A stretch of DNA of 64,000 nucleotides from an uncultured beta proteobacterium (lineage in GTDB: Bacteria; Pseudomonadota; Gammaproteobacteria; Burkholderiales; Burkholderiaceae_C). The notes beneath the pieces were generated by a model that was not told the origin of the DNA, searched no databases, and saw only the letters and a program-made list of their open reading frames with translations. Where the stretch lies: NCBI GenBank assembly GCA_903897925.1, contig CAIUDG010000132.1:1-64000 (forward strand), given 5' to 3'. The translations under genes were made by a program, and so were the position numbers. The first letter of the stretch is position 1. Every line of letters begins with the position of its first letter. Below, in pieces: positions 49,053-64,000 of this stretch.

Positions 49053-49916
49053 TCAATACACCGGGGCCGCGCCCTGCGGCCGGTCCTTGAAGCGCTTGTG
49101 GACCCAGTAATACTGGGTCGGCATGCGGTCAATCATTTCCTGCAGACGCAGATTCATCAGCGCCGTATCGGCCACCGCGTCGGTACTGGGAAAATCGGCC
49201 CAGGCCGGCTGCACCTCAACCTCATAGCCGGTATCGGTCATGCGCGTCACCAGGGGAACCACCTTGGCCCGCCCGAGTCGTGAAAAGCGCGACAGCGAAG
49301 GCACGGTGGCGGCGGCGACCCCATAAAACGGCACAAACACCGACTCCTCCGGCCCGAAGTTCATGTCCGGCAACAAGTACAGCGGCGCGCCCGACTTGAG
49401 ACCGGCGATGATGGCTTTCACGCCCTCGATACGCCCATACAGGTGCGCCTGTCCGAAGCGCTTGCGGCCCTGCAGGATCCAGGCATCCGATACCTTGTTG
49501 GCCTGGTCTGTGTAGATGGTGGTGAAGCGGCGCGGCAGCTGCTGTGTCAGTGCCGTCCAGCCGGCATCCAGTCCGACGAAGTGCGGCGCAAAGATCACCG
49601 TCGGCGCTTCGCCGTCGAGCTCTTGTACAGCGCCAACCAGGCGCAGCCGCGCCAGGGTCTTGGTCGGATTGCCGTGCCAGAGCCAGCCGCGGTCCAGCCA
49701 GGCCTTGCCGAAATAGGCGAACACGGCGCGCGTATTGGCATCCAGCTCCTGGGCACTCCAGTGCGGAAAACACAAACGCAAATTGGTCTGCACCACCCGG
49801 CGCCGCGAGCGCACCAGCCAGTACAACAACGCGCCCAGCGCAGCGCCCAAGGCGCGCACCCACGACAGCGGCAGCACGGCGCTGCAGCGCAGCAAAAACA
49901 AGACCAGACGCGTCAT
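49053..49916 (-). CDS. Lipid A biosynthesis acyltransferase, LpxL/HtrB family (first copy)
   Basis: Membrane-bound acyltransferase that adds a secondary acyl chain to Kdo2-lipid A. From ATG 49916 it has 287 residues. It has an N-terminal hydrophobic helix and the catalytic HX4D motif in APHFVGLDAGW. The DMNFGPEESVFVPFYG motif and the C-terminal PTQYYWVHKRFKDRP are present. It begins 1 bp after the second copy's stop. Which acyl chain and position each copy uses cannot be told from sequence. Confidence 0.9.
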   Translation of the reverse strand: MTRLVLFLLRCSAVLPLSWVRALGAALGALLYWLVRSRRRVVQTNLRLCFPHWSAQELDANTRAVFAYFGKAWLDRGWLWHGNPTKTLARLRLVGAVQELDGEAPTVIFAPHFVGLDAGWTALTQQLPRRFTTIYTDQANKVSDAWILQGRKRFGQAHLYGRIEGVKAIIAGLKSGAPLYLLPDMNFGPEESVFVPFYGVAAATVPSLSRFSRLGRAKVVPLVTRMTDTGYEVEVQPAWADFPSTDAVADTALMNLRLQEMIDRMPTQYYWVHKRFKDRPQGAAPVY

Positions 49917-49917
49917 T

Positions 49918-50748
49918 TCAGAGGGACTCCCGCGGTTCCTTGTAGCGCGCATAACCCCACAGGTACTGCTCCGGCTGGGCCAGAATCAGCGACTCCATGG
50001 CGGCGTTGATCTGCGCGGCGGCCTGTGGCATGTCGGTCGACAGGGCCTGCGGCAGCGGCCGCACGTGCACCACGTAGCCACGGCCCCAGCTGCGGCGCTC
50101 GCCCCAGGCAATCAGCACTGCGGCGCCACTTTGCAGCGCCAGGCGTGCCGACAAGGTCATGGTGTAGGCCGGTTTACCAAAGAAAGGCGCCCAGACACCG
50201 AGTGGACTGGGCGGCACCTGGTCCGGCAGCAATCCCACGCAGTGGCCGTTTTTCAGCACCCGCAGCAGTTGCCGCACACCCGACAGGGTGGTGCTGGCGC
50301 TGTCCATACCGGGGCGGCTGCGGGCGCCGGCAACCAGGGTCTGCAAATATTTTTTCCGGGCCGGTCGAAACAGCACCGTCATGGGGTGTCCGGCCACGCC
50401 AAAGCGCGCGGCATAGGCCTGTGCCGTGATCTCGAAACAACCCAAATGCGGCGTCAGAAACACGATGCCCTTGCCGCCCGCCAAAGCCGCCGTCACCAAT
50501 TCGCTGCCATCCCACTGGACCGCCGGGGTGCGCCCCATCCACAGGCGCGGCAACTCTGCCACCAGCTTGCCGGACTCGCCCACGGCACGCAGCCATTGGC
50601 GCCGCGGCAAACCTGCCAGGCGGGCGTTTTCCAGGAACCGCTGGCGGTACTCAGGCGCCAACAAGAAGGCCAGCCAGCCCATGACCCAACCCAGGCCGTG
50701 CAGAACAAGCAGGGGAAACAGGGCCAATAAACGAAACAAAACTGTCAT
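49918..50748 (-). CDS. Lipid A biosynthesis acyltransferase, LpxL/HtrB family (second copy)
   Basis: Paralogue of the neighbouring acyltransferase. Of 276 residues, the N-terminal helix is [21 protein letters not shown] and the catalytic motif HLGCFE has glutamate in place of aspartate (HX4E). The [24 protein letters not shown] motif and the ending [16 protein letters not shown] are present. The pair probably adds two different secondary acyl chains. Divergent from metK. Confidence 0.9.
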
Positions 50749-52134: not shown

Positions 52135-53370
52135 ATGAAACTACAGACACAACGCTTCATCGACCGCTGGGTCGGCCAGCTGCTTTGCCGCGTGGTGTCT
52201 GCCTGGGTGCGCCTGCTGGCGCCGTTCACGGCAGCACCCACGCTAGGCCCAGCACCGCGCAACATTTTGGTGATTTTGCTCTCCGAAATGGGCAGCATCG
52301 TGCTAGCCGGACCGATGTTTGCACAGCTGCGCCGCCAATATCCCGGCGCCAATATCCACATTCTGCAACTGAAGAAAAACCAGGAAGTCTCCAAGCTGCT
52401 GCAGCTGACGGCACCCCAGTTCATGCACAGCCTGGACGACAGTTCCGGAGGCCGCCTGATCAGCGACATCCTGCGCGTCAGTCTGGCCATGCGCCGGCTG
52501 CAGCTCGATGCCGTCATCGATTGCGAGCTGTTCTCACGCGTCAGCGCCCTGCTCTCCTTCACCACCGGCGCCCGGGTGCGGGTCGGCTTTACGCCGCACA
52601 CCCAGGAAGGCCTGTACCGTGGCAGTTTCATCAACCACGCGATTCCCTACAACCCCTACCAGCACATCAGCAAGCAGTTTCTGTCGCTGGTCGATGCACT
52701 GCAGGCCGGCAGCACCATGCCGCGCAGCAAAGCCGGCGCCATTCGCCCTCTGCCCGCAGACACCGAGCTGAACGTGGCCTTCAAGGCCGACGAATTACCG
52801 GCCTACCGGGCACAACTCGAACGTGACCACCCGGTGGTGGCACAGCGCCAGCTGGTGCTGATGTATGCCGGCGGCGGCATCCTGCCGGAGCGTGCCTGGC
52901 CGGCGGCGCACTACGCCAGTGTGGCGCGCGGCCTGTGCGCGGCCGGTGTTGCAGTGGGCCTGATCGGCCTGAAAGACGACGCCCAGCTGGCCAAAGATCT
53001 GCAACAGCAGGTGCAAAGCGCAGCCTGCATTGACCTGACCGGCTACACCCGCAGCATCCGCGAACTGCTGATGCTGTTCCATGCCGCCGACCTGCTGATC
53101 ACCAACGATGGCGGCCCGGGCCACTTTGCCACCCTGACACCAATCCAGACCATGGTTTTCTTCGGCCCCGAAACCGGCAAACTGTACGGTCCCCTGGGTC
53201 AGCGCAACCAGGTGCTGGAAAGTGGAATTGCCTGCTCGCCCTGTCTGTCTGCCTACAACCACCGCCTGACCTTTTGTGACGGCGACAACCAGTGCCTCAA
53301 ACGCATTGCACCCGACCCGGTGCTGGCCGAAGCGCTGCAATTCCTGCGCCGCACCGCGCCCACTTCATGA
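52135..53370 (+). CDS. Glycosyltransferase family 9 protein (heptosyltransferase-like)
   Basis: GT-B fold transferase of the ADP-heptose:LPS heptosyltransferase family. The 411-residue protein has an N-terminal nucleotide-fold strand (NILVILLSEMGSIVLAGPMFAQLRRQYPGANI). The C-terminal donor site has LMYAGGGILPERAWPAAHYA and TNDGGPGHFATLTPIQTMVFFGPET, where family 9 enzymes bind ADP-sugar. An N-terminal extension of about 40 residues is unusual. The acceptor is unknown. Its stop overlaps gtrA by 4 bp. Confidence 0.88.
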   Translation: MKLQTQRFIDRWVGQLLCRVVSAWVRLLAPFTAAPTLGPAPRNILVILLSEMGSIVLAGPMFAQLRRQYPGANIHILQLKKNQEVSKLLQLTAPQFMHSLDDSSGGRLISDILRVSLAMRRLQLDAVIDCELFSRVSALLSFTTGARVRVGFTPHTQEGLYRGSFINHAIPYNPYQHISKQFLSLVDALQAGSTMPRSKAGAIRPLPADTELNVAFKADELPAYRAQLERDHPVVAQRQLVLMYAGGGILPERAWPAAHYASVARGLCAAGVAVGLIGLKDDAQLAKDLQQQVQSAACIDLTGYTRSIRELLMLFHAADLLITNDGGPGHFATLTPIQTMVFFGPETGKLYGPLGQRNQVLESGIACSPCLSAYNHRLTFCDGDNQCLKRIAPDPVLAEALQFLRRTAPTS

Positions 53371-53844: not shown

Positions 53845-55593
53845 ATGCGCGCAATTCGCCACCCTGATGCGCCCTGGGTCCTGCTGGTGGCCCTGGCGGC
53901 GGCGCTGTACCTGTTCGGACTCGGTGGCCCCTACGCGCCGACCAATGGCGACGAAATGGTCTACATCCATATCGCCCGCATGACCAGCGCGTCCGGCCAT
54001 TGGCTGCCACTGCAGTCAGAACTGATCGGCACCCGCAACACCAAGCCACCGCTGCTGATCTGGCAGGCCATCCTGGCCAGCGACTGGGGCCGCCACTGGA
54101 ACCTGTTGGCGCTGCGCCTGCCAAGCATTCTGTACACCTTTGCCAGCACTGCCCTGGTCGGCTTCTTTGCCTGGCGCTTCAGTGCCCGCCTGCGCAGCGC
54201 CTGCCTGGCGGCCAGCCTGTACCTGCTGTACTTTTCCACCTTCCGCTATGGCCGGGTCTACCTTACCTCGGCACCCGAAACCTTCTGGCTGGCGCTGCCG
54301 ATGTGGTGGCTGCTGTGGCAGCGCCTGGGGCCGCAGCGTGACATGCGCCTGCAGATCGATTGGCGCACTTACACCTGGTTTGGCATCGTCCTGGGCCTGG
54401 GTGCCGCCTACAAGTCGTTTGCCCTGCTGGCACCTGCCGGTGCGGCGTTCTGGTGCGCCTATCTGCTTGGCGAAAAACGCTGGCACTGGCCCACCGTCTG
54501 GCGCTGCAGCGCCGGCACCGCCTGGAGTGTGCTGCTGGGCCTGGCGATTTTTGCGCTCTGGTTTCTGCTGGACCCGGACCCGGCGGCGGTGTGGCAGGAA
54601 TTTGTGGTGGCGGAAAACGCAGGCAAAATGAACACCAGCCAGGGTTACTGGCAGGCCGCTCTGTATGGAACTTACCCAATGTGGACACAGCTGCTGGCCT
54701 ATCCGGTGAATGCCGGGCTGCTGGCCCTGAACACACTGGGTTTTTGCTGGTGGGCGCTGCGCCAAAGCGTCCTGACACGCTGGGTGCGGCAGCTGTCGTC
54801 GGCACACTGGGTTTTGCTGGCCTGGCTGCTGGTCTGGCTGATTGTTTTCACCATTCCCAGCCAGCGCTCGGAGCGCTATGTGATTCCGGCCATGCCGGCA
54901 CTGGCCATTGCCATGGCCCTGGTCTGGGAGCGCATCCCCCGGATCTGGTCCCTGGCCAGCCTGCTGATTGCGGCACCGGCACTGCTGGTGCTGGCGCGCA
55001 TTGCCTGGGTTATCGGCGGCATGGATGTCGGCTCGGCACTGGACGCAGGCGGCGCCGTGTTGGTCTGTGGCGCCGGTCTGCTGGCCATCGTGCTGGGCCT
55101 GGCGCGTGCGGCCTGGACGCGCAACGCCAGTCTGCTCGCCTGCCTGGCGGTCTACGCCTGCTTCGCCCTGATGGTGGCACCGCTGTCAGACCCGCAAAGC
55201 GACTTCAGCAGCAGCGTGCAACAGCAGCTGCAAGGCAAGCGCATTGCGGTGCCCAATGGCTTTACCGGGCAGTACGAAAACTACCATTTCGTATTCCCCG
55301 GACCGGCGGTCGCTATCTACCCGTACGACGCCGAAGGCCGCAACACCGGAGAACGCTATCCAGACCTGCCGCCAGACGCACGCCTGCAGCGCCTGCTTGG
55401 CGAGTTTGACGCGGTGGTCTGGCTACAAGACAGCGCCAGCCAAAGCGCGCCCAGCTGCCTGCCCGCCTGCCGCCTGCTGGCCCAACGCTGGCATGTGCGC
55501 AGCCGCCACAAGGCCGGCGAAATCACGCTGGACAATCTGTGGTACCCGCAGCAGTGGCTGTTCAACCGCGAGTGGCTGATTACCAAGCCTTAA
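53845..55593 (+). CDS. ArnT/PMT-type membrane glycosyltransferase
   Basis: GT-C fold integral membrane glycosyltransferase using a polyprenyl-phosphate sugar donor. The 582-residue protein has about 12 membrane helices. The periplasmic first loop contains TNGDEMVYIHIARM (the acidic GDE catalytic motif) and the next loop RNTKPPLLIWQ, both standard for ArnT-like enzymes. A soluble C-terminal domain of about 120 residues follows. The sugar and acceptor (lipid A or another surface glycan) are not known. Its 3' end overlaps the convergent membrane-protein gene by 14 bp. Confidence 0.86.
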   Translation: MRAIRHPDAPWVLLVALAAALYLFGLGGPYAPTNGDEMVYIHIARMTSASGHWLPLQSELIGTRNTKPPLLIWQAILASDWGRHWNLLALRLPSILYTFASTALVGFFAWRFSARLRSACLAASLYLLYFSTFRYGRVYLTSAPETFWLALPMWWLLWQRLGPQRDMRLQIDWRTYTWFGIVLGLGAAYKSFALLAPAGAAFWCAYLLGEKRWHWPTVWRCSAGTAWSVLLGLAIFALWFLLDPDPAAVWQEFVVAENAGKMNTSQGYWQAALYGTYPMWTQLLAYPVNAGLLALNTLGFCWWALRQSVLTRWVRQLSSAHWVLLAWLLVWLIVFTIPSQRSERYVIPAMPALAIAMALVWERIPRIWSLASLLIAAPALLVLARIAWVIGGMDVGSALDAGGAVLVCGAGLLAIVLGLARAAWTRNASLLACLAVYACFALMVAPLSDPQSDFSSSVQQQLQGKRIAVPNGFTGQYENYHFVFPGPAVAIYPYDAEGRNTGERYPDLPPDARLQRLLGEFDAVVWLQDSASQSAPSCLPACRLLAQRWHVRSRHKAGEITLDNLWYPQQWLFNREWLITKP

Positions 55594-56266
55594 GGCGGCG
55601 CCAGGCAGCGCGCAGCAGCAGCACCTGCAAAATCAGCCAGAGCCAGGGATCAAGCAAGGCGTCCCACACATTGCCGCTCGGCAGGCGCGTCAGCACAAAC
55701 ACCAGCAGCGCCAGCACCGGCACCAGCAGCCAGAACGGCGCAAGGTTGCCGCACGCCGTGCTACCCCGTACCACCCAGGGCAACAACACCAGCGCCAGCA
55801 CCAGCAACAATGCCTGGGTGCTGAAGCCCCAGGCATAAAGCTGCACCGGCAGAACGGCAAAGGTGTCCAGCAGCAGCAGGTAACCCAGCAGCACCGCCGC
55901 TCCGGCCCACCACAGCGGCGCCGCAGCGACCGGCCGAGCCGGCAAGGCGACGCCCGGCCCAAGCTGGCGTTGAAGACCCCAGACACAGCACAGCACCGCG
56001 CTCAGGCTGGGCGCATGAAACGCCAGACCGAGCCAATACGTGGGGGACAGCGGCCCCGGCAACAAGGCCCACAGCGCCAGCAGCAGCGCCAGCGTGCGAC
56101 GCCAGACCAGGCGCTGGCGCGGCATGGCAGTGGCGCCCAGAAAACCCAGCACCAGGGCCCAGCCCAGCGCCATGCTGGCGCGCATCCAGGCCGGGTCCGG
56201 CAGCAGCGCAAGGTCGGTGGCAGCGCGGTCCAGCCACCACGGCGCCAAAGACGCCATGGACATCAT
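55580..56266 (-). CDS. Seven-helix membrane protein of unknown function
   Basis: I do not recognise a family. The 228-residue protein has about seven hydrophobic helices separated by very short loops, is rich in Leu, Ala and Trp, and has a basic C terminus (RRLKAW). No charged or metal-binding motif stands out within the helices. Its start overlaps the stop of the sialidase-fold gene by 4 bp (ATGA; a second ATG follows at once), so the two are translationally coupled and may form a complex. Confidence 0.7.
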   Translation of the reverse strand: MMSMASLAPWWLDRAATDLALLPDPAWMRASMALGWALVLGFLGATAMPRQRLVWRRTLALLLALWALLPGPLSPTYWLGLAFHAPSLSAVLCCVWGLQRQLGPGVALPARPVAAAPLWWAGAAVLLGYLLLLDTFAVLPVQLYAWGFSTQALLLVLALVLLPWVVRGSTACGNLAPFWLLVPVLALLVFVLTRLPSGNVWDALLDPWLWLILQVLLLRAAWRRLKAW

Positions 56267-57435
56267 GGCGCGCCCCCGGCACTGCGGTCCGGCACCAGGT
56301 GCTGCCAGGCGATGGACTTGCGGTGGTCGGTATAACTCACCCACAGGTCGCCATCGACCCAGCGCAGATCGGGATAAGAATATTCATCGGCATCATCGCC
56401 GTGGGCCAGCGCCGCCACCGTGTGCCACTGCCGGCCATCGGCGGAAGCACTCAAATCCAGCACCGACCGGCTGTGCGGCGAACTGTTGTGCACCAGCAGC
56501 ATGCGGCCCTCGCGCAGCCCAATGCCGTTGACCGCCGCGTCCGGATTGACCAGGGCCAGATCGGGCAAGTCCTGCCAGCTTCTGCCGCCGTCCAGGGTTT
56601 GCGCCGCGCCGACACGGCCCTCCGGCCGCTCATCGCGCATCAGTGCCAGCCACTGCTGCGGGCCTTGCATCAGCAAAGTCGGCTGCAACAAATAGTTGCG
56701 CCGCGAAATCCGCTCCATGCCGGAAAAATGGCCCTGGGCATCAAAGCGCAGCGCCACCGGGTACTTGATGCCCAGCTCGAAATGCACCGGCAATTCCATG
56801 CCGCCATCGGCCAGTTGCAGCGGATTGTTGCGCACCAGAAAACTGGTGTTCCACAACCAGGACAGTGGCAGCACCCGCTCCGGCACAAAACGCAGCTCAG
56901 CCAGGTCATTCGAAGCGCTGCTCTGCACCAGGTGCAAAACACGCCCTGCGGCCCAGCCGCCCCAGCCGGTGGCCACCACAAACAGGTGCATGCGCCCAGC
57001 GCCGTCGAGCCAGGCCACCGGGTTGCCCAGGCGCCGCAATCCGAAGCCAAGTTGCTCGCCCATCGTTTGGCGATTGACCACATAACGTGCCGCGCGCCAG
57101 GTCTGGCTGCGGCGATCCCATTGGGATGCGGCGATCTGCACATTTGGCGCGCTCTCGCGGTCGCCGGCAAACCAGAACGCCGTCAGCAGCGCGGCGTGGC
57201 CGGCCGGCATCGCCAACAGGCTGCTGGCATGGGCTGCCCTGGCCCCCTGCGGCATCGGAATCTGGCCCTGCGCCACGGCTTTGAACCGGGGTGCTTCGGC
57301 CACGCCTGGCGCCGCTGGCCACAGCGCCTGGGCCGGTGCCGGCGCAGGCGGCTTGCGCGCCTGCTCCAGCCCCCAGACGAGCAGCAACAGCAGCAGCGCA
57401 GCAAGTGCACGGAATAGACGGGAACGAAACAGCAT
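56263..57435 (-). CDS. Membrane-anchored sialidase-fold (BNR repeat) protein
   Basis: Likely six-bladed beta-propeller related to exo-alpha-sialidases. The 390-residue protein has an N-terminal signal anchor (LFRALAALLLLLLVWGL), a Pro/Ala linker, then the propeller. One clear Asp-box is TLDGGRSWQDL; others are degenerate, such as SADGRQWHTV. The usual FRIP start of sialidases is not visible, though an arginine-rich blade and YSYPDLRWVDGDLWVSYTDHRKSI near the C terminus are conserved-looking. Activity on sialic acid is uncertain. AGGA precedes the ATG. Lies 55 bp after the PaiB-like gene. Confidence 0.75.
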   Translation of the reverse strand: MLFRSRLFRALAALLLLLLVWGLEQARKPPAPAPAQALWPAAPGVAEAPRFKAVAQGQIPMPQGARAAHASSLLAMPAGHAALLTAFWFAGDRESAPNVQIAASQWDRRSQTWRAARYVVNRQTMGEQLGFGLRRLGNPVAWLDGAGRMHLFVVATGWGGWAAGRVLHLVQSSASNDLAELRFVPERVLPLSWLWNTSFLVRNNPLQLADGGMELPVHFELGIKYPVALRFDAQGHFSGMERISRRNYLLQPTLLMQGPQQWLALMRDERPEGRVGAAQTLDGGRSWQDLPDLALVNPDAAVNGIGLREGRMLLVHNSSPHSRSVLDLSASADGRQWHTVAALAHGDDADEYSYPDLRWVDGDLWVSYTDHRKSIAWQHLVPDRSAGGAP

Positions 57436-58134: not shown

Positions 58135-61100
58135 TCAGTGATTCGAAATGCCCAGTTCCACCTGTGGCACCCAGCCCGCGGCACCGGCCTCGGTTTTGGC
58201 GACGCCAAGGAACAGACGATCGGCTGGCAAAGGGCTGGCGCCCAGGTAATCACGCACGGCGATGCTGCGCGCGAACGCGAGTTCGCGCACGCTGTCGGCA
58301 TTCACGGTCATGCTGTCGAGCAGCAGGCTTTGCATCTGTGGCACAGGGATCTCGCTGGCCAGGCCCAACAGATTGCGCGGTTTCTTGATGTCGGCGTGCT
58401 TATAGACCGCCCGCAGCAAATCCGGGTACTCGGCATCGGTGACGGCGACGACCGCCTGCACATTCTTGCCGGCACTGGCGGCCAGCCGCCGTTTCTCTGC
58501 CAGCAGCAAGTCCTGCAGCCGCTGCTGGCGTATGGCCTGGGCTTCGGCCTCCAGACTGGCCGTGCCGACAATCGTCAGCTGCAGCGCGGGCCGGTCCTGC
58601 AACTCCTTGGCAATGCGGTCCAGATTGTGCTTGCCGCTGTCGCTGAACTGGGTGCTGCCAAGCTCGAAGGTGACGGCGCCGATTTCGGCATCCGCAGCGC
58701 CACCGGAGCCGAGCGAAAACAGACTGAATGGCGAAGTGACGGCCTTGGCAATCAGGTTGCCAAGCATTTTCCAGAGCACGGGGCCGATGCTGAATTGCGG
58801 GTCGTTGATGGAGCCACTGATCGGCAAATTCAGATTGATCACGCCATCGCGATCGCGCAACAGCGCAGTGACCAGTTTCACCGGCAAACTGGCCGGTGCC
58901 CCGGGCACGGCGTCGCCAAAGGTCAGCTGGTTGAGCACCACGTGGTTGCTGGCGCTGAGCTGGCCGTCCGGCTGCACCAGGTAACCCAGTTCGGCACTCA
59001 GCTTGCCACGCTCGACGCCATAGCCGGCGTATTTGATGGCATAGGACGACAGCGGCGACAGCTCCAGGTCGCTGACCTTGGCGTGGATGTCCAGCTCCAG
59101 CGGCCGCGCCAGCGGGTTCAGGCGACCGCTCACTTCGAGCTGCGCGCTGCCTTCGGCACGTCCGCGCAATGCCAGATCGGCACTCGCCACGCTGCCGTTC
59201 TGGCGCCGAGTGCTGATCCGTCCCAGGCTGCCATTGAGCGCACTCAATTCGGCCGAATAGTGGGGTTGGATGAAACGGTCGGAAAACGCCACCCGGCCGC
59301 TGGCCAGCCGCAGCGGACCGAATTCAATCAGGGGCTCGGCAGCGCTGTCCTGCGCTGCGCCCGGGCCGGACGCCGGCACCGGAGGCGGCGCTGGCGCCGC
59401 ACTGTTGGCCACCGCGGGCGCCGTGCTGGCGGCCGGCTTGACCAGGTCCTGCAGCACCAGCCGGCCCTCGGAATTGACGATCAACCTGGCGAAGAAGTCA
59501 CTCAGGGAAATCTCGCCAATGCGCAGTTGCAGCGGCGCACCGGGATTCAGTGCCAGATCAATCCCCGGCAAGGCCAGCACCTTCCAGCTGAGCAATTCTT
59601 CCGCGCCCTGGGTCGTCGCCGGTTGGCTGCCGGACGCGCCGCTGATGGCCTGAAAACTGTTGGCCTGAAAATCTTCCAGCGCGCCATCCCCATGCAGTTG
59701 CAGCGACATGCCAGCCGGCAAGCTGGCATAGCGCAGCGGCCCCTTGAAATTGACATCGGCACGCAACAGCTCGACATGCATCTGGTTCATCAGATAGGGG
59801 GCCGCAAAATGGCCCGGAAAATCATGCAGCTCCAGGATTCCCTGGGCCAGCACCGGGCTCCACATGACGCTGCCGTCAAATTTCAGGCTGCCCGGGTCGG
59901 TGCGGCCCGAGCGCGCATTGGCACGCAGATGCAGTGCGGCCGGCTGCTTGCCATCCAGGGTCAGGTTTTGCGCCTGCAGGTTGAGTGCGCTGAGCGCCAA
60001 AAATACCGGTTTCACCGGCTGCTGGTCCACCAGCGTCAGGTTGCCATCGTCGAGCCGCAGCTGGTCCAGCCGGACCTTCCAGGCGGGTGCGGATGCAGGC
60101 ACCGCTGCGGTGGCGGGCGCCGCGGCAACGGCGGGCTGGGGCGTGAGCCAGTGGGCATACATCCACTGGCCGTCGGCACCGCGCTGGGCGCGCAGCAGCG
60201 GCGCATGCAGGGCCAGCTTGCCAACGCGCAGCGACCGCGCCTTCAGGTCCAGCACCACATCCTGCAGCTCCAGCGCCTTGAAAGCCGGCATCTGTTTGGC
60301 GTTGCCGCTGGCATCCAGATCGGCCGCGTGCAGTGCGAAATCACGCAACGCGGCATGCGGCAGCCGCAGCTGGACCCCGGCCGTGTCCCAGTCGGCGGCC
60401 AGTTCAGCGTCCAGCGTGCCACGCACGCTGGGCAGCAGGTAATTCGCCAGGTAGGGCGCTGCCAGGGGCAGGCCCAGATCCGACAGCGTGGCGCGGGCCT
60501 TGCCCGCAGCGAGCGTTCCCGCGCCTTCCAGCTGGACACGCGCCGGCTTGCCTGGCGCGCCGGCCAGCGCATTCAAACCAAAGGAAGCGGAAAACGCCGC
60601 CGCCTGCGACGCCGCCATCGGCCAGTGGATATTTTTCACCTCCAGCGCGGCCTGGCCCAGCTGCAGATCGGCGACCGGCGCCACGCTTTCATCGCGCCAG
60701 CGCAGCTGGCCCTGCTTCAGGGCCAGCTGCGCCAGTTCCACCGTCCAGGGCGCCGCAGACGCGGCGGCCGGCGCCTTGGCCTCGGGCGCGGCGCTGGCCA
60801 GTTCCAGGTTCAGGCGGCCGTCGTGGTGGCGTGTCAGTGCCACGCGCGGCTGCGTCAGGGTCAATGATTTCAAACCGATGTGGCGCTCCAGTGGCCGCAC
60901 ATCTGCCAGCTCGGCCTGCAGCGACTCCAGCTGCAGCACATCGGCACCGGCCGCGTCGGCCAGCTGCACCTGCGACAGCTGCAGCGTGCCGGCAATCGAC
61001 AGCTGCGGCGTGGCCTGCTGAGAAAAATGGATCTGCAAAGCACTGTCGAGTACCGCTGCCCGCAGTTGCAGTGGCAGAGAGCGTGGCAGGTAAGAAAGAT

Positions 61101-61818
61101 ACGGTGCCAGGTCCAGGTGGGCAATGCGCAGCTGCAACTCGCCCTGGCGCGCGACGGCAAACGGGGTGGCCTGGGCCTGGCTGTCAAACGCCGCACCGTT
61201 GAGTTCAAAGGCCAGATGCGGCTGCACCCGGACTTCGCGCTGGGAATCCAGATTGCTCAGAAACGGTAGCGACAACTGCAGCTTGCGCAAGGCATGGCTG
61301 CGCGCCTGGGTTCCGGTCTGGTCGAGCAGGTCGATTGCGCCGTCTTGCAGTTCAACGTTGTAGAGCGCGAAATGCACTGCCGGCGCCGGCGTTTCGGGTG
61401 TGCCGGGCGGCGTGGCAAAACGCTGCAGCAGGTCGTCAATATCGTAATGGCCGTTGGCCAGGCGCGTCAGTTGCAGCTGCGGCCGCTCGATGCGCAAGGC
61501 GTCCAGCACCGGGGCCAGCCTCCACAACGATGCGATGCTGGCATCCAGCGTCAGGGCGCCCAGCGCCAGCTGGCTGCGGCTGCCATCCGCCGTTGCCACC
61601 TGGAGGTCGGACACCACCACGGACAGGGACCAGGGATGCAGGGCCAGGGCGCCAACCGTCACGCTGCGGCCCAGCGCGGCACTGGCGCGGGATTCAATCT
61701 GGCTCTTGAGCAGCGGCGCCAGCGCCAGACTGGCCAGGCTCAGCAAAGCCGCCAGCGAAAGCACGGCAGCAGCGATCAGCACCAGGCGGCGGCGCCAGGT
61801 TCCTTGCGAAAAAATCAT
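58135..61818 (-). CDS. DUF748 AsmA-like envelope protein
   Basis: Very large inner-membrane-anchored periplasmic protein of 1227 residues. An N-terminal anchor helix (LVLIAAAVLSLAALLSLASLAL) is followed by long repeats of beta-rich AsmA/DUF748 sequence such as ALRIERPQLQLTRLANGHYDIDDL. AsmA-like proteins are proposed to bridge the membranes for phospholipid transport. A later segment, DGVINLNLPISGSINDPQFSIG, is the family hallmark. The C-terminal 150 residues (FELGSTQFSDSGKHNLDRIAKEL) resemble the helical ending of the family. Between dnaE2 (9 bp) and the PaiB-like gene. Confidence 0.88.
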   Translation of the reverse strand: MIFSQGTWRRRLVLIAAAVLSLAALLSLASLALAPLLKSQIESRASAALGRSVTVGALALHPWSLSVVVSDLQVATADGSRSQLALGALTLDASIASLWRLAPVLDALRIERPQLQLTRLANGHYDIDDLLQRFATPPGTPETPAPAVHFALYNVELQDGAIDLLDQTGTQARSHALRKLQLSLPFLSNLDSQREVRVQPHLAFELNGAAFDSQAQATPFAVARQGELQLRIAHLDLAPYLSYLPRSLPLQLRAAVLDSALQIHFSQQATPQLSIAGTLQLSQVQLADAAGADVLQLESLQAELADVRPLERHIGLKSLTLTQPRVALTRHHDGRLNLELASAAPEAKAPAAASAAPWTVELAQLALKQGQLRWRDESVAPVADLQLGQAALEVKNIHWPMAASQAAAFSASFGLNALAGAPGKPARVQLEGAGTLAAGKARATLSDLGLPLAAPYLANYLLPSVRGTLDAELAADWDTAGVQLRLPHAALRDFALHAADLDASGNAKQMPAFKALELQDVVLDLKARSLRVGKLALHAPLLRAQRGADGQWMYAHWLTPQPAVAAAPATAAVPASAPAWKVRLDQLRLDDGNLTLVDQQPVKPVFLALSALNLQAQNLTLDGKQPAALHLRANARSGRTDPGSLKFDGSVMWSPVLAQGILELHDFPGHFAAPYLMNQMHVELLRADVNFKGPLRYASLPAGMSLQLHGDGALEDFQANSFQAISGASGSQPATTQGAEELLSWKVLALPGIDLALNPGAPLQLRIGEISLSDFFARLIVNSEGRLVLQDLVKPAASTAPAVANSAAPAPPPVPASGPGAAQDSAAEPLIEFGPLRLASGRVAFSDRFIQPHYSAELSALNGSLGRISTRRQNGSVASADLALRGRAEGSAQLEVSGRLNPLARPLELDIHAKVSDLELSPLSSYAIKYAGYGVERGKLSAELGYLVQPDGQLSASNHVVLNQLTFGDAVPGAPASLPVKLVTALLRDRDGVINLNLPISGSINDPQFSIGPVLWKMLGNLIAKAVTSPFSLFSLGSGGAADAEIGAVTFELGSTQFSDSGKHNLDRIAKELQDRPALQLTIVGTASLEAEAQAIRQQRLQDLLLAEKRRLAASAGKNVQAVVAVTDAEYPDLLRAVYKHADIKKPRNLLGLASEIPVPQMQSLLLDSMTVNADSVRELAFARSIAVRDYLGASPLPADRLFLGVAKTEAGAAGWVPQVELGISNH

Positions 61819-61827
61819 GCGCCATTA

Positions 61828-64000
61828 TTAGTGAAAATCCCGGCTCTGCGTGGACAAGTCGCCTAGCAGAGGGGTCAAATCGACCAGCCGCTTGGCGATC
61901 ACATGGCGCACCTGCCCGCCGCTGTCCGTATCGCGCTGCCAGACGCCATACACCGCCATCAGCCGGGCCCGGTACAGGGCGTCACGGAACTGCGCCTTCA
62001 CGCGCTCCCAGACAATCACATTGACGCTGCCGGTCTCGTCTTCCAGGGTGACAAAGACCACGCCTTTGGCGGTCTGCGGCTGCTGGCGCATGATGACGAT
62101 GCCGCAGGCACGCACCAGGCGGCCACTCGGGAAGTGCTGCATCTGGGCAGCACTGAGCAGGCGCAGCGGCGCCAGCCTGGCGCGCAACAAATGCAACGGA
62201 TGCGCCCGCAGGCTCAGGCCGGTGGCGGCGTAATCAAACACCACTTCCTCGCCTTCTTCCGCCGCCGGCAGGGCCAGCGCCACTTCATGCACCGGCACCC
62301 CTTTCAATAACTGCGGTGCCGGCTGCAAGGCACAGGCATCCCAGACCTGCTGACGCCGGTGGCCACTCAGACTGCGCAGTGCATCGGCGCTGGCCAGCGC
62401 CTTCAGCGCGGCAGCATCCAGCGCACAGCGCAAGGCCAGGTCCTGGGTACTGCTGAACAGCGCCTGCAGCCGCGCCGCCGCAATGCGCTGCGCCGCGGCC
62501 TGTGCCAGACCACTGACCAGGCGCAAACCCAGACGCACAGCCGGCTGCACCGGGGCAGCCATTGCGACACTGCCTGTGCTTCCTGTGCTTCCTGTGCTTC
62601 CTGTGCTTCCTGTGCTTCCTTGGCTGTGCGCCGGCTCCAGCGTGCAATCCCAGTCGCTGTACAGCACGTCCACCGGGCGCACCTGCACACCGTGGCGCTG
62701 GGCATCCCGCACCAGCTGCGACGGCCCGTAAAAACCGAGTGGCTGGCTGTTCAGCAAGGCCGCCAGAAACGCGGCGGGTTCATGGCACTTGAGCCAGCTG
62801 CTGACGTACACCAGCAGCGCAAAACTGGCGGCGTGGCTTTCCGGAAAACCGTATTCACCAAAGCCTTCTATCTGCCGAAACAGCCGATCCGCATACGCTT
62901 GCGTATAGCCATTGCGCAGCATGCCGCCGATAAGGCGTTCCTGGTATTTGTGCACCCCGCCTTTGCGCTTCCAGGCCGCCATCGAGCGGCGCAGGCCATC
63001 GGCCTCGCCGGCCGAAAAATCGGCCGCCGCCATGGCAATCTGCATCACCTGTTCCTGAAAAATCGGCACCCCGAGGGTGCGCCGCAAGACCTCTTCAAGC
63101 GCCGCACTGGCGTACTGCACCGCCTGCGGCTGGGCCCGGGCCAGCAGGTACGGGTGCACCATGCCGCCCTGGATCGGCCCTGGTCGGACAATCGCCACCT
63201 GCACCACCAGGTCATAAAAACAGCGCGGCCGCAGCCGTGGCAGCATGCTCATCTGGGCCCGGCTCTCGATCTGGAACACGCCCACCGTATCGGCCTGGCA
63301 GATCATCGCGTAGGTGGCCGGGTCCTCCGGCGGGATGTCCTGCATGCGCAAATGGCTGCCACGCCACTGGCCAACCAGTGCCAGGCAGCGCCGGATGGCA
63401 CTCAGCATGCCCAGCGCCAGCACGTCGACCTTGAGCAGGCCGACCGCATCCAGATCGTCCTTGTCCCACTGGATCACGCTGCGCTGTGGCATGGCGGCGT
63501 TTTCCACCGGCACCAGCCGCGTCAGCGGGCCCTGGGTCAGCACGAAACCGCCCACGTGCTGGCTCAGGTGGCGCGGAAAGCGCTGCAATTGGCGCGCCAG
63601 CGCGAGCCATTGCTGCAAGGTGGCCGCCGGCGGCACCGGCACCTCCGGCCCGAGCCGCTCCAGGGCGGCCTGCAGGCGCTCGGCCAGCACCTCGCGGCTG
63701 TACATGCCGGGATGCTCCTTGCACAGGGCCACGATCAGCGCCTCGGGCAACGCCAGCGCGCGCCCGACATCGCGCAGCGCACTGCGCGGGCGGTAGCTGG
63801 TCACTACCGCCGTCAGGGCAGCGCGAGCGCGGCCGTATTTGGCATAGATGTACTGGATCACTTCTTCGCGCCGCTGGTGCTCGAAATCGACATCGATGTC
63901 CGGCGGCTCGTCGCGTTCGCGGCTGACAAAGCGTTCAAACAACAAACACGTGCGCGCCGGATCGACTTCGGTCACGCCAAGGCAGTAGCACACCGCCGAA
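61828..64000 (-). CDS. dnaE2: Error-prone DNA polymerase DnaE2 (ImuC), C-terminal part
   Basis: Alpha-subunit-like polymerase of the SOS mutasome, working with ImuB. The gene runs off the right edge; about 720 C-terminal residues are present out of roughly 1050 expected. Catalytic aspartates are visible in PDIDVDF and LKVDVLALGML. The fingers/beta-binding region (GEYGFPESHAASFALLVYVSSWLKCHEPAAF) and a C-terminal OB fold (CGIVIMRQQPQTAKGVVFVTLEDETG) follow. DnaE2-type lack of the DnaE1 C-terminal tau-binding domain fits the short end. An in-frame 9-bp repeat (62573-62617) encodes five Gly-Ser-Thr units between the fingers and the next domain. Confidence 0.92.
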   Translation of the reverse strand, partial: SAVCYCLGVTEVDPARTCLLFERFVSRERDEPPDIDVDFEHQRREEVIQYIYAKYGRARAALTAVVTSYRPRSALRDVGRALALPEALIVALCKEHPGMYSREVLAERLQAALERLGPEVPVPPAATLQQWLALARQLQRFPRHLSQHVGGFVLTQGPLTRLVPVENAAMPQRSVIQWDKDDLDAVGLLKVDVLALGMLSAIRRCLALVGQWRGSHLRMQDIPPEDPATYAMICQADTVGVFQIESRAQMSMLPRLRPRCFYDLVVQVAIVRPGPIQGGMVHPYLLARAQPQAVQYASAALEEVLRRTLGVPIFQEQVMQIAMAAADFSAGEADGLRRSMAAWKRKGGVHKYQERLIGGMLRNGYTQAYADRLFRQIEGFGEYGFPESHAASFALLVYVSSWLKCHEPAAFLAALLNSQPLGFYGPSQLVRDAQRHGVQVRPVDVLYSDWDCTLEPAHSQGSTGSTGSTGSTGSTGSVAMAAPVQPAVRLGLRLVSGLAQAAAQRIAAARLQALFSSTQDLALRCALDAAALKALASADALRSLSGHRRQQVWDACALQPAPQLLKGVPVHEVALALPAAEEGEEVVFDYAATGLSLRAHPLHLLRARLAPLRLLSAAQMQHFPSGRLVRACGIVIMRQQPQTAKGVVFVTLEDETGSVNVIVWERVKAQFRDALYRARLMAVYGVWQRDTDSGGQVRHVIAKRLVDLTPLLGDLSTQSRDFH
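62573..62617. repeat. Perfect 9-bp tandem repeat, five units, inside dnaE2
   Basis: The unit CCTGTGCTT is repeated five times without error, then a degenerate sixth (CCTTGGCT). On the coding strand each unit reads GGAAGCACA (Gly-Ser-Thr). Being a multiple of three, gain or loss of units changes only linker length. Confidence 0.9.

Follow-up and report, generated by a model that had tools for sequence, protein, structure and literature searches.

Kdo hydrolase takes the outer Kdo off Kdo2-lipid A, an activity that needs two proteins, KdoH1 and KdoH2. Zhao and Raetz (2010) reportedly assigned a single, N-terminal membrane helix to KdoH1 and seven helices to KdoH2. In the accessible portions of the literature, this two-component enzyme is described from Francisella novicida and Helicobacter pylori (PMC3245313, PMC4688374), and KdoH is reported to affect polymyxin resistance and virulence in Helicobacter and Francisella (PMC5371381, PMC10653695). 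The Francisella genes kdoH2 and kdoH1 carry the consecutive locus numbers FTT0398c and FTT0399c, from which we deduced the gene order kdoH1 followed by kdoH2 (PMC4688374). For FTN_0495 (kdoH1) the description given is a BNR "repeat-like domain protein", for FTN_0494 (kdoH2) it is a "hypothetical membrane protein" (PMC6587636, PMC2928790). In one paper the two H. pylori subunits both go under the name "subunit 2" (PMC5368276).

The window, the whole stretch of 64,000 nt that was analysed, derives from a Rhodoferax-like bacterium and contains a gene pair, here called P1 and P2, together with three facing genes:

56263..57435, minus strand: P1 (P0001, 390 aa), predicted signal-anchored sialidase-fold propeller (Pfam BNR_2), probable KdoH1-type subunit
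57355..57420, minus strand: predicted N-terminal membrane helix (signal anchor) of P1, residues 6-27, from the AlphaFold2 secondary structure, with basic residues ahead of the helix
56275..57288, minus strand: P1 propeller, residues 50-387, from structural matches and alignments A1 and A4
55580..56266, minus strand: P2 (P0002, 228 aa), predicted seven-helix membrane protein, probable KdoH2-type subunit
56263..56266, minus strand: ATGA, the 4-bp overlap of P1 stop and P2 start, read from the sequence
53845..55593, plus strand: P3 (P0003), PMT-family, ArnT-like glycosyltransferase with a presumed polyprenyl-phosphate-sugar donor, tail-to-tail with P2
53367..53840, plus strand: P4 (P0004), GtrA family membrane protein, putative polyprenyl-phosphate-sugar flippase
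52135..53370, plus strand: P5 (P0005), GT9 family, heptosyltransferase-like, below the WaaC and WaaF cut-offs

The P1 and P2 reading frames are open at these coordinates, with the P2 ATG at 56266. An earlier interpretation of this DNA, the sequence-only reading, had described the 4-bp overlap, a signal-anchored sialidase-fold propeller with at least one Asp-box, a seven-helix partner of no assignable family and three facing glycan-transfer genes on the plus strand, and each of these descriptions held in our analysis, the last through Pfam assignments of the three genes to GT9, GtrA and PMT families.

P1 and P2 form a near-obligate genomic pair. P2 adjoins P1 in 73 of 74 loci of a first set and in all 43 loci of a second set, from 12 families, although the two counts are not independent because the sets share organisms (L047/G125, L081/G002 and L096/G019). 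Rare co-occurrence, which the sequence-only reading had regarded as speaking against a functional pair, was thus not what we found. The -4 spacing is seen again in 55 of 73 related loci, in which the P2 starts were chosen by script. In the 200 genomes of the window's family P2 occurs in 16, each time with P1 directly upstream. Five further P1 genomes were seen with short flanks only: P2 lies directly after P1 in 4 of the 4 whose contig extends far enough, whereas that of G427 stops at P1. Two loci were excluded from the 43-locus set. In L121 the P2 match is not adjacent to P1 and sits at a contig end, where P1 may be cut off; the weak match in L122 (G020; 16-20 bits, without P1) was discarded as chance. 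The iterated P2 model carries some circularity, since adjacency to P1 was required of the distant members that entered it; an unseeded P2 model placed P2 beside P1 in 31 of the 43 loci at E <= 0.01 and gave two other matches. In L123 and L124 the P2-like match spans just 47% and 61% of the model.

P1 matches PF13088 (BNR_2, "BNR repeat-like domain") with 178 bits. Its AlphaFold2 model (mean pLDDT 91.2) consists of the N-terminal helix 6-27, a short helix 122-129 within the propeller and otherwise strands, and the protein is predicted to be membrane-tethered with the propeller on the periplasmic side. Reading of the sequence gave one good Asp-box (TLDGGRSW) and degenerate copies. The best structural matches of the model are GH33 sialidases, such as the Micromonospora viridifaciens sialidase and BTSA (4bbw), with VIA Z scores of 32.9-34.5 and, among the structural matches listed, an identity of 13-19%.

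The sequence-only reading had also proposed inspection of the propeller for a true sialidase pocket, and this pocket appears to be only partly conserved. In both profile alignments to sialidases Tyr354 occupies the column of the GH33 nucleophile, and Arg267 and Arg323 align with sialidase arginines of the triad; in contrast, all members of A1 and A4 have Gln251 in the column of the Glu partner of this Tyr. P1 thus seems to differ from a standard sialidase in that two Arg and the Tyr are kept while the Glu is replaced by an invariant Gln. The first triad Arg is apparently His69, as judged from motif reading alone. In the region of the acid/base Asp, an invariant Glu94 lies near the expected place, in a column that has no alignment to solved sialidases, and a profile of the N-terminal part of P1 (A3) found no sialidase among its PDB matches. 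Residues invariant in A1 and A4 include H69, E94, N138, E220, Q251, R267, N297, N317, R323 and Y354. Across 16 sequences, of which the other 15 share 29-44% identity with P1, Tyr354, Arg267, Arg323, Glu94 and Glu220 are unchanged.

The P2 model (mean pLDDT 87.9) contains seven helices of at least 15 residues and four short helices, and the charge bias of 65 sequences supports a predicted topology of seven membrane passes with N-out and C-in. In this topology three conserved loops (mean conservation 0.73, 0.70 and 0.86) are periplasmic, as is the N-terminus (0.35), and the cytoplasmic loops are at 0.20-0.30; the P1 propeller and the conserved P2 loops would therefore lie on the same side of the membrane. 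Searches of P2 against Pfam and NCBIfam gave no family match; the match to a known unrelated family that the sequence-only reading had named as speaking against its proposal was thus absent from these searches. Foldseek found no PDB match to the P2 model at E <= 0.001 (best VIA row Z 4.5), which does not imply a novel fold. Ten distant P2 proteins gave only sub-threshold Pfam matches, in three of them, the best being Wzy_C with 16.4 bits against a cut-off of 31.7. Most aligned distant relatives keep a motif RGxxGDLS, which is missing from the window's clade, where LAFQxPS stands instead; the substrate of this clade may therefore differ.

Taken together, the P1-P2 architecture appears to be that of KdoH1/KdoH2, a type already known from Helicobacter and Francisella, a likeness seen in gene arrangement, predicted structure and published descriptions. 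P1 would contribute the sialidase/BNR relatedness and a predicted single N-terminal transmembrane segment, P2 the seven transmembrane segments seen in the model and the charge-bias topology, and the two genes are adjacent in the order H1 then H2. As far as the accessible portions of the papers go, both systems place a gene for a sialidase-related (BNR) protein beside a membrane-protein gene in an inner-membrane, LPS setting (PMC3245313, PMC4688374, PMC6587636, PMC2928790). Consequently, the suggestion of the sequence-only reading that the pair is an undescribed system is not supported, since KdoH1/KdoH2 share its architecture (PMC3245313, PMC12342981, PMC4688374, in their accessible portions). 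Unlike KdoH1/KdoH2, the window's pair is inherited together with P3, P4 and P5, company that does not appear in the accessible portions of the KdoH literature. The absence of RGxxGDLS, seen by comparison with distant P2 relatives, may count as a further difference.

We consider it probable that P1 and P2, as one subunit each, make up an inner-membrane enzyme of the KdoH1/KdoH2 type which trims a Kdo-like residue. The P1 propeller would hang in the periplasm from its single helix and bear the sugar-cleaving site, while P2, in the membrane, would use its conserved periplasmic face to position the propeller, the lipid-anchored substrate or both. Acting from the periplasm, the pair would remove the terminal Kdo-like residue of Kdo2-lipid A/core that has just been flipped. 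Kdo as the substrate, catalysis and a physical P1-P2 complex are what we infer. The near-obligate pairing would fit an activity for which both proteins are required, and the WaaC-type neighbour in L120, the LPS-core genes of the window's genome and the conserved periplasmic loops of P2 also speak for this reading. Against it weigh the invariant Gln251 and the apparent His69, the missing RGxxGDLS motif, the many pairs in other gene company, the partial P2 matches in L123 and L124 and the sub-cut-off score of the WaaA candidate. Since the pair occurs in 12 families of Pseudomonadota, the trimming of Kdo or a closely similar process probably extends well beyond Helicobacter and Francisella.

Within the window's family, inheritance of the pair goes together with that of the facing glycan-transfer genes. 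P3 and P5 are both present in 18 of the 20 P1 genomes compared to 1 of 180 genomes without P1 (Fisher p 2e-22, P1 versus P3 or P5, which ignores shared ancestry and is indicative only). The P5 orthologues in this count are 19 matches of at least 50% identity; 81 more genomes had distant GT9 matches only. P3 adjoins P1 or P2 in rearranged gene orders as well. Pairs without P3 nearby amount to 27 of the 43 second-set loci (including G101 and G119) and 10 of 62 long first-set loci, in some of which P3 may lie past the fetched flank; because such pairs exist, the P3 product is not an obligatory substrate. The claim of a tethered glycan module tied to its neighbours is hence supported in part, by near-obligate pairing, predicted periplasmic tether and co-inheritance, and is not supported in its word "undescribed". 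In a distant relative (L120) the pair lies in a gene run, a waaC operon, with a GT9 protein above the WaaC cut-off (188.1 versus 185.3 bits). Outside the family, neighbours are often Gfo/Idh/MocA genes or PF00884 proteins, and the scanned neighbours in L119, L175, L186 and L187 include no glycan gene. Inside it, L126 has fatty-acid-synthesis genes beside the pair, and L128 no glycan gene among the scanned neighbours.

P3 exceeds the Pfam cut-off of the PMT family (36.5 versus 22.7 bits). The combination of a GtrA family protein with a PMT-family transferase (P4 and P3) resembles GtrABC O-antigen glucosylation and ArnT lipid A modification; unlike GtrABC, the scanned window genes include no GtrB-type synthase gene, and unlike ArnT, P3 scores far under the curated ArnT cut-off (12.9 versus 567 bits). 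GtrA and P3 share one frame in L125, L130 and L131. In L125 and L130 Pfam finds GtrA but no PMT at E <= 0.01, so that the P3 part rests on our own P3 model (444-458 bits). An apparent P3-P1 fusion in L127 was rejected, as its two domains do not share a reading frame and the long frame is no more than an open stretch. The window's genome has a WaaA-like protein (471.6 bits, below the NCBIfam cut-off of 524), WaaC and WaaF; WaaC and WaaF are located elsewhere, which makes P5 an additional GT9. Near the cassette there is also a gene for a lipid A acyltransferase.

An alternative that we regard as unlikely retains the KdoH-like pair and changes its substrate: P1-P2 would act, by cleavage or transfer, on some other terminal sugar, belonging either to the LPS core or to a glycan built by P3, P4 and P5, as the editing half of the cassette. 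The co-inheritance with P3 and P5, the position of P3 next to P1 or P2 even in rearranged orders and the divergent P2 motifs of the window's clade argue for it, whereas the pairs without nearby P3 do not fit, and the WaaC context of L120 suggests a link with the LPS core in general.

The pocket bears on two further explanations. P1 might be a catalytically dead sialidase fold whose role is to bind glycan and, together with P2, to recruit the P3 glycosyltransferase or regulate it. This would agree with the Gln in place of the catalytic Glu in all aligned members and with the apparent loss of the first Arg, but the five residues invariant across 16 sequences form the pattern of a retained active site and pairs without nearby P3 exist, so we hold this explanation to be improbable. 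An ordinary GH33 exo-sialidase, acting on sialic, legionaminic or pseudaminic acids, is suggested by the top structural matches and is in our view highly improbable given the invariant Gln, the low identity to the listed sialidases and the near-obligate seven-helix partner; the membrane anchor is a further difference from GH33 sialidases. To our knowledge, secreted or soluble sialidases have no near-obligate membrane partner.

Returning to a Kdo-hydrolase-type pair, the same core would be decorated by P5 and by P3, the latter with a polyprenyl-linked sugar delivered by the GtrA-family P4. Since P3/P4 and P5 would act on this core, trimming and re-capping may be one process. We offer this tentatively, as a somewhat doubtful extension, in the form of an LPS inner-core module: in the periplasm, P1-P2 would cut off a terminal octulosonic residue, and P3-P4-P5 would add another sugar to the exposed core. 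If so, Rhodoferax-like Burkholderiales would possess a core chemotype so far undescribed, and the diverged P2 face, with LAFQxPS for RGxxGDLS, would reflect a changed substrate. The literature searched held no description of a P3-P4-P5 cassette, and searches on COG4692 and on BNR repeat-like domain with glycosyltransferase and GtrA returned nothing useful; these partners provide a concrete pathway for testing.

Such a pair is easily missed, as neither Pfam nor NCBIfam has a model for P2, and P1 would probably be named a sialidase. A plasmid search gave four distant matches of 25-28% identity; the annotation is sialidase family protein for two of these and exo-alpha-sialidase for one.

P1, a signal-anchored sialidase-fold propeller of 390 aa, and P2, a seven-helix membrane protein of 228 aa, are encoded by genes that share the sequence ATGA, which bears out the 4 bp overlap proposed in the sequence-only reading. 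The pair faces a cassette encoding P5 (GT9 family, heptosyltransferase-like), P4 (GtrA family membrane protein) and P3 (PMT family, ArnT-like glycosyltransferase):

49053-50748, minus strand: two overlapping acyltransferase-like genes adjoining metK (49918-50748 matched to Pfam Lip_A_acyltrans, the other recognised by eye)
55580-56266, minus strand: P2, open frame
56263-57435, minus strand: P1, open frame, BNR_2 match of 178 bits (Pfam)
58135-61818, minus strand: DUF748/AsmA/YhdP-type protein of 1227 aa, two genes upstream of P1
Plus strand, facing the pair: P5 (GT9), P4 (GtrA) and P3 (PMT)

According to the coordinates, the overlap of P5 with P4 measures 4 bp, and that of P3 with P2, tail to tail, 14 bp. 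Past the cassette lie metK and a lipid A acyltransferase gene, and LPS genes are abundant around the acyltransferase-like genes; on the opposite side are genes for an FMN-binding protein and the DUF748/AsmA protein, whose class is linked to envelope lipid transport. A DNA-polymerase-like ORF with an in-frame Gly-Ser-Thr repeat was recognised by eye at 61828-63993 (minus strand). The genome contains one P1 copy, and P2 had no Pfam or NCBIfam match even at E <= 1.

The two genes, coupled in the sequence-only reading, regularly occur together in other genomes. Of 200 genomes from the family to which the window belongs, 20 were found to have P1 and 16 to have P2, the latter in every case directly downstream of P1. 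In the remaining four P1 genomes a broader P2 model detected a P2-like match adjoining P1 (G029 L123, G155 L124, G115 L125 and G099 L126). In L123 and L124 this match spans 47% and 61% of the model, covering its second part only; P2 of this genus may be shortened, very divergent or mis-framed. In a set of 80 loci, labelled mostly as uncultured betaproteobacteria, Burkholderiales, Comamonadaceae or Rhodoferax, P2 directly follows P1 in 73 of the 74 that could be scored (at least 600 bp after P1), with a spacing of -4 in 55 of these 73. The sole separated pair has a PAS/histidine-kinase gene between, with P2 4 kb on (L050:9272-13039). In a second set spanning 12 families P2 adjoins P1 in 43/43 loci, 31 of which were recovered by the unseeded P2 model alone; L121 and L122, fetched as well, lack P1 and were left out of the 43. 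Five further P1 genomes were represented by short loci, with P2 present in four and the contig ending in one. P1 of G130 (L006) carries an internal stop and that of G019 (L011, L021) is split in two pieces, candidate readings being decay or misassembly.

P1 was modelled as one N-terminal helix followed by a propeller (pLDDT 91.2). Among the 50 VIA matches listed, 49 are sialidases by title or Nan/Neu name (Z 32.9-34.5, identity 13-19%), and the remaining one, 4j9t, is a designed protein. The pocket of true sialidases, considered for P1 in the sequence-only reading, was recovered in part: in profile alignments of the second half of P1 with solved sialidases, Arg267 and Arg323 fall on two triad arginines and Tyr354 on the nucleophile, but the Glu position is occupied by Gln251. 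H69, E94, N138, E220, Q251, R267, N297, N317, R323 and Y354 are invariant in 16 P1 proteins, the other 15 being 29-44% identical to P1 of the window. Since the profile search gave no sialidase alignment for the first half of P1, it is from strand and motif only that His69 appears to replace the first triad Arg. By these comparisons the site is kept but altered, pointing to neither a standard sialidase nor an obviously dead one.

P2 is predicted to cross the membrane seven times, N-out and C-in, because of its Lys+Arg distribution: over 65 sequences the mean is 0.40 for the N-terminal segment, 3.40 for the loop after helix 1 plus helix 2, then 0.06, 2.49, 0.08, 1.26 and 0.94 for the following loops in order, and 2.46 for the C-terminal segment; the loop with 0.94 has 1.98 Asp+Glu. 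The predicted periplasmic loops 2-3, 4-5 and 6-7 contain 21 of the 33 columns of P2 that are conserved at >= 90%. Distant relatives share the motifs RGxxGDLS, YPxALGxxxxDPYxxGY and SxNLWDYLLDP, and at the same places the clade of the window and a few others carry LAFQxPS, DTFAxLPxxLYAWGF and RLPTGNVWDAxLDP. P70, Y144, G147, N199, D202 and D206 are invariant in an alignment of 17 P2 sequences.

This architecture is the same as that of KdoH1/KdoH2, the two-component Kdo hydrolase of Helicobacter and Francisella, as compared by description rather than sequence. In 2010 Zhao and Raetz reportedly described it as a seven-helix protein and, encoded next to it, a protein related to sialidases that has a single N-terminal helix. 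By this likeness, P1-P2 is quite probably a KdoH-type enzyme. Excerpts of published work report that in H. pylori KdoH1 and KdoH2 together remove the terminal Kdo at the periplasmic face (PMC3245313, PMC12342981), that Francisella kdoH1 and kdoH2 have consecutive locus numbers and encode inner-membrane proteins (PMC4688374), that FTN_0495 is classed as a BNR repeat-like domain protein (PMC6587636) and FTN_0494 as a hypothetical membrane protein (PMC2928790), and that the single Kdo of Francisella results from a two-component Kdo hydrolase (PMC10653695). The genome of the window is presumably able to make the substrate of such an enzyme, because a WaaA candidate (above the Pfam cut-off; NCBIfam 471.6 vs cut-off 524), WaaC (306.3 vs 185.3) and WaaF (318.2 vs 134.6) are present. 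With WaaC and WaaF accounted for, P5 is therefore an extra GT9 protein. If KdoH-type, the pair itself belongs to a known kind, and what makes it a variant is its diverged P2 face together with the PMT-GtrA-GT9 set inherited alongside it; the literature searched, in listings and excerpts with few subscription papers among them, yielded no description of the cassette or of KdoH in Comamonadaceae.

P3 occurs in 19 of the 200 family genomes and P5, counted at 50% identity or more, in the identical 19. Both are found in 18 of the 20 P1 genomes, and without P1 only in G109; G101 and G119 have P1-P2 without P3 and without a close P5, and in G099 the pair and the P3/P5 set lie apart. Near the pair in 62 long loci of the 80-locus set were P3 (52), P4 (48) and P5 (48), and an insertion may put P3 out of reach in some of the others; in the 12-family set P3 is near the pair in 16/43 loci. 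The genes are convergent in the clade of the window; in L123 and L124 they make up one run, P1-P2-P5-P4-P3; and they are ordered P5-P4-P3-P1-P2 in L127 and L191 and P3-P1-P2 in L117, L118, L188 and L194. That the set is kept though gene order changes argues for a shared function.

A purely LPS-related reading is weakened by fatty-acid-synthesis genes among the neighbours scanned in L126 and by the lack of any glycan gene among those scanned in L119, L128, L175, L186 and L187. The run at L120:3325-11178, from one distant relative, may represent an LPS core operon that includes uncharacterised members: GT9, DUF3108, PEMT (phospholipid-methyltransferase-like), P1, P2, PF00884, Glycos_transf_1 and Glycos_transf_2. 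At 188.1 bits its GT9 protein exceeds the cut-off of 185.3 bits for WaaC, the heptosyltransferase I of LPS (WaaC assignment was scored at L120 only). PF00884 proteins are encoded next to the pair in L120, L129, L184, L201 and L202; lipoteichoic acid synthase is the best NCBIfam model for these five and for that of L197, at 61-76 vs a cut-off of 970 bits. In L185 a gene next to the pair encodes a PMT_2 protein. In one genus-level group (L177, L178, L182, L183) a Gfo/Idh/MocA oxidoreductase gene adjoins P1 on its upstream side and may link the pair in that group to the oxidation of a sugar.
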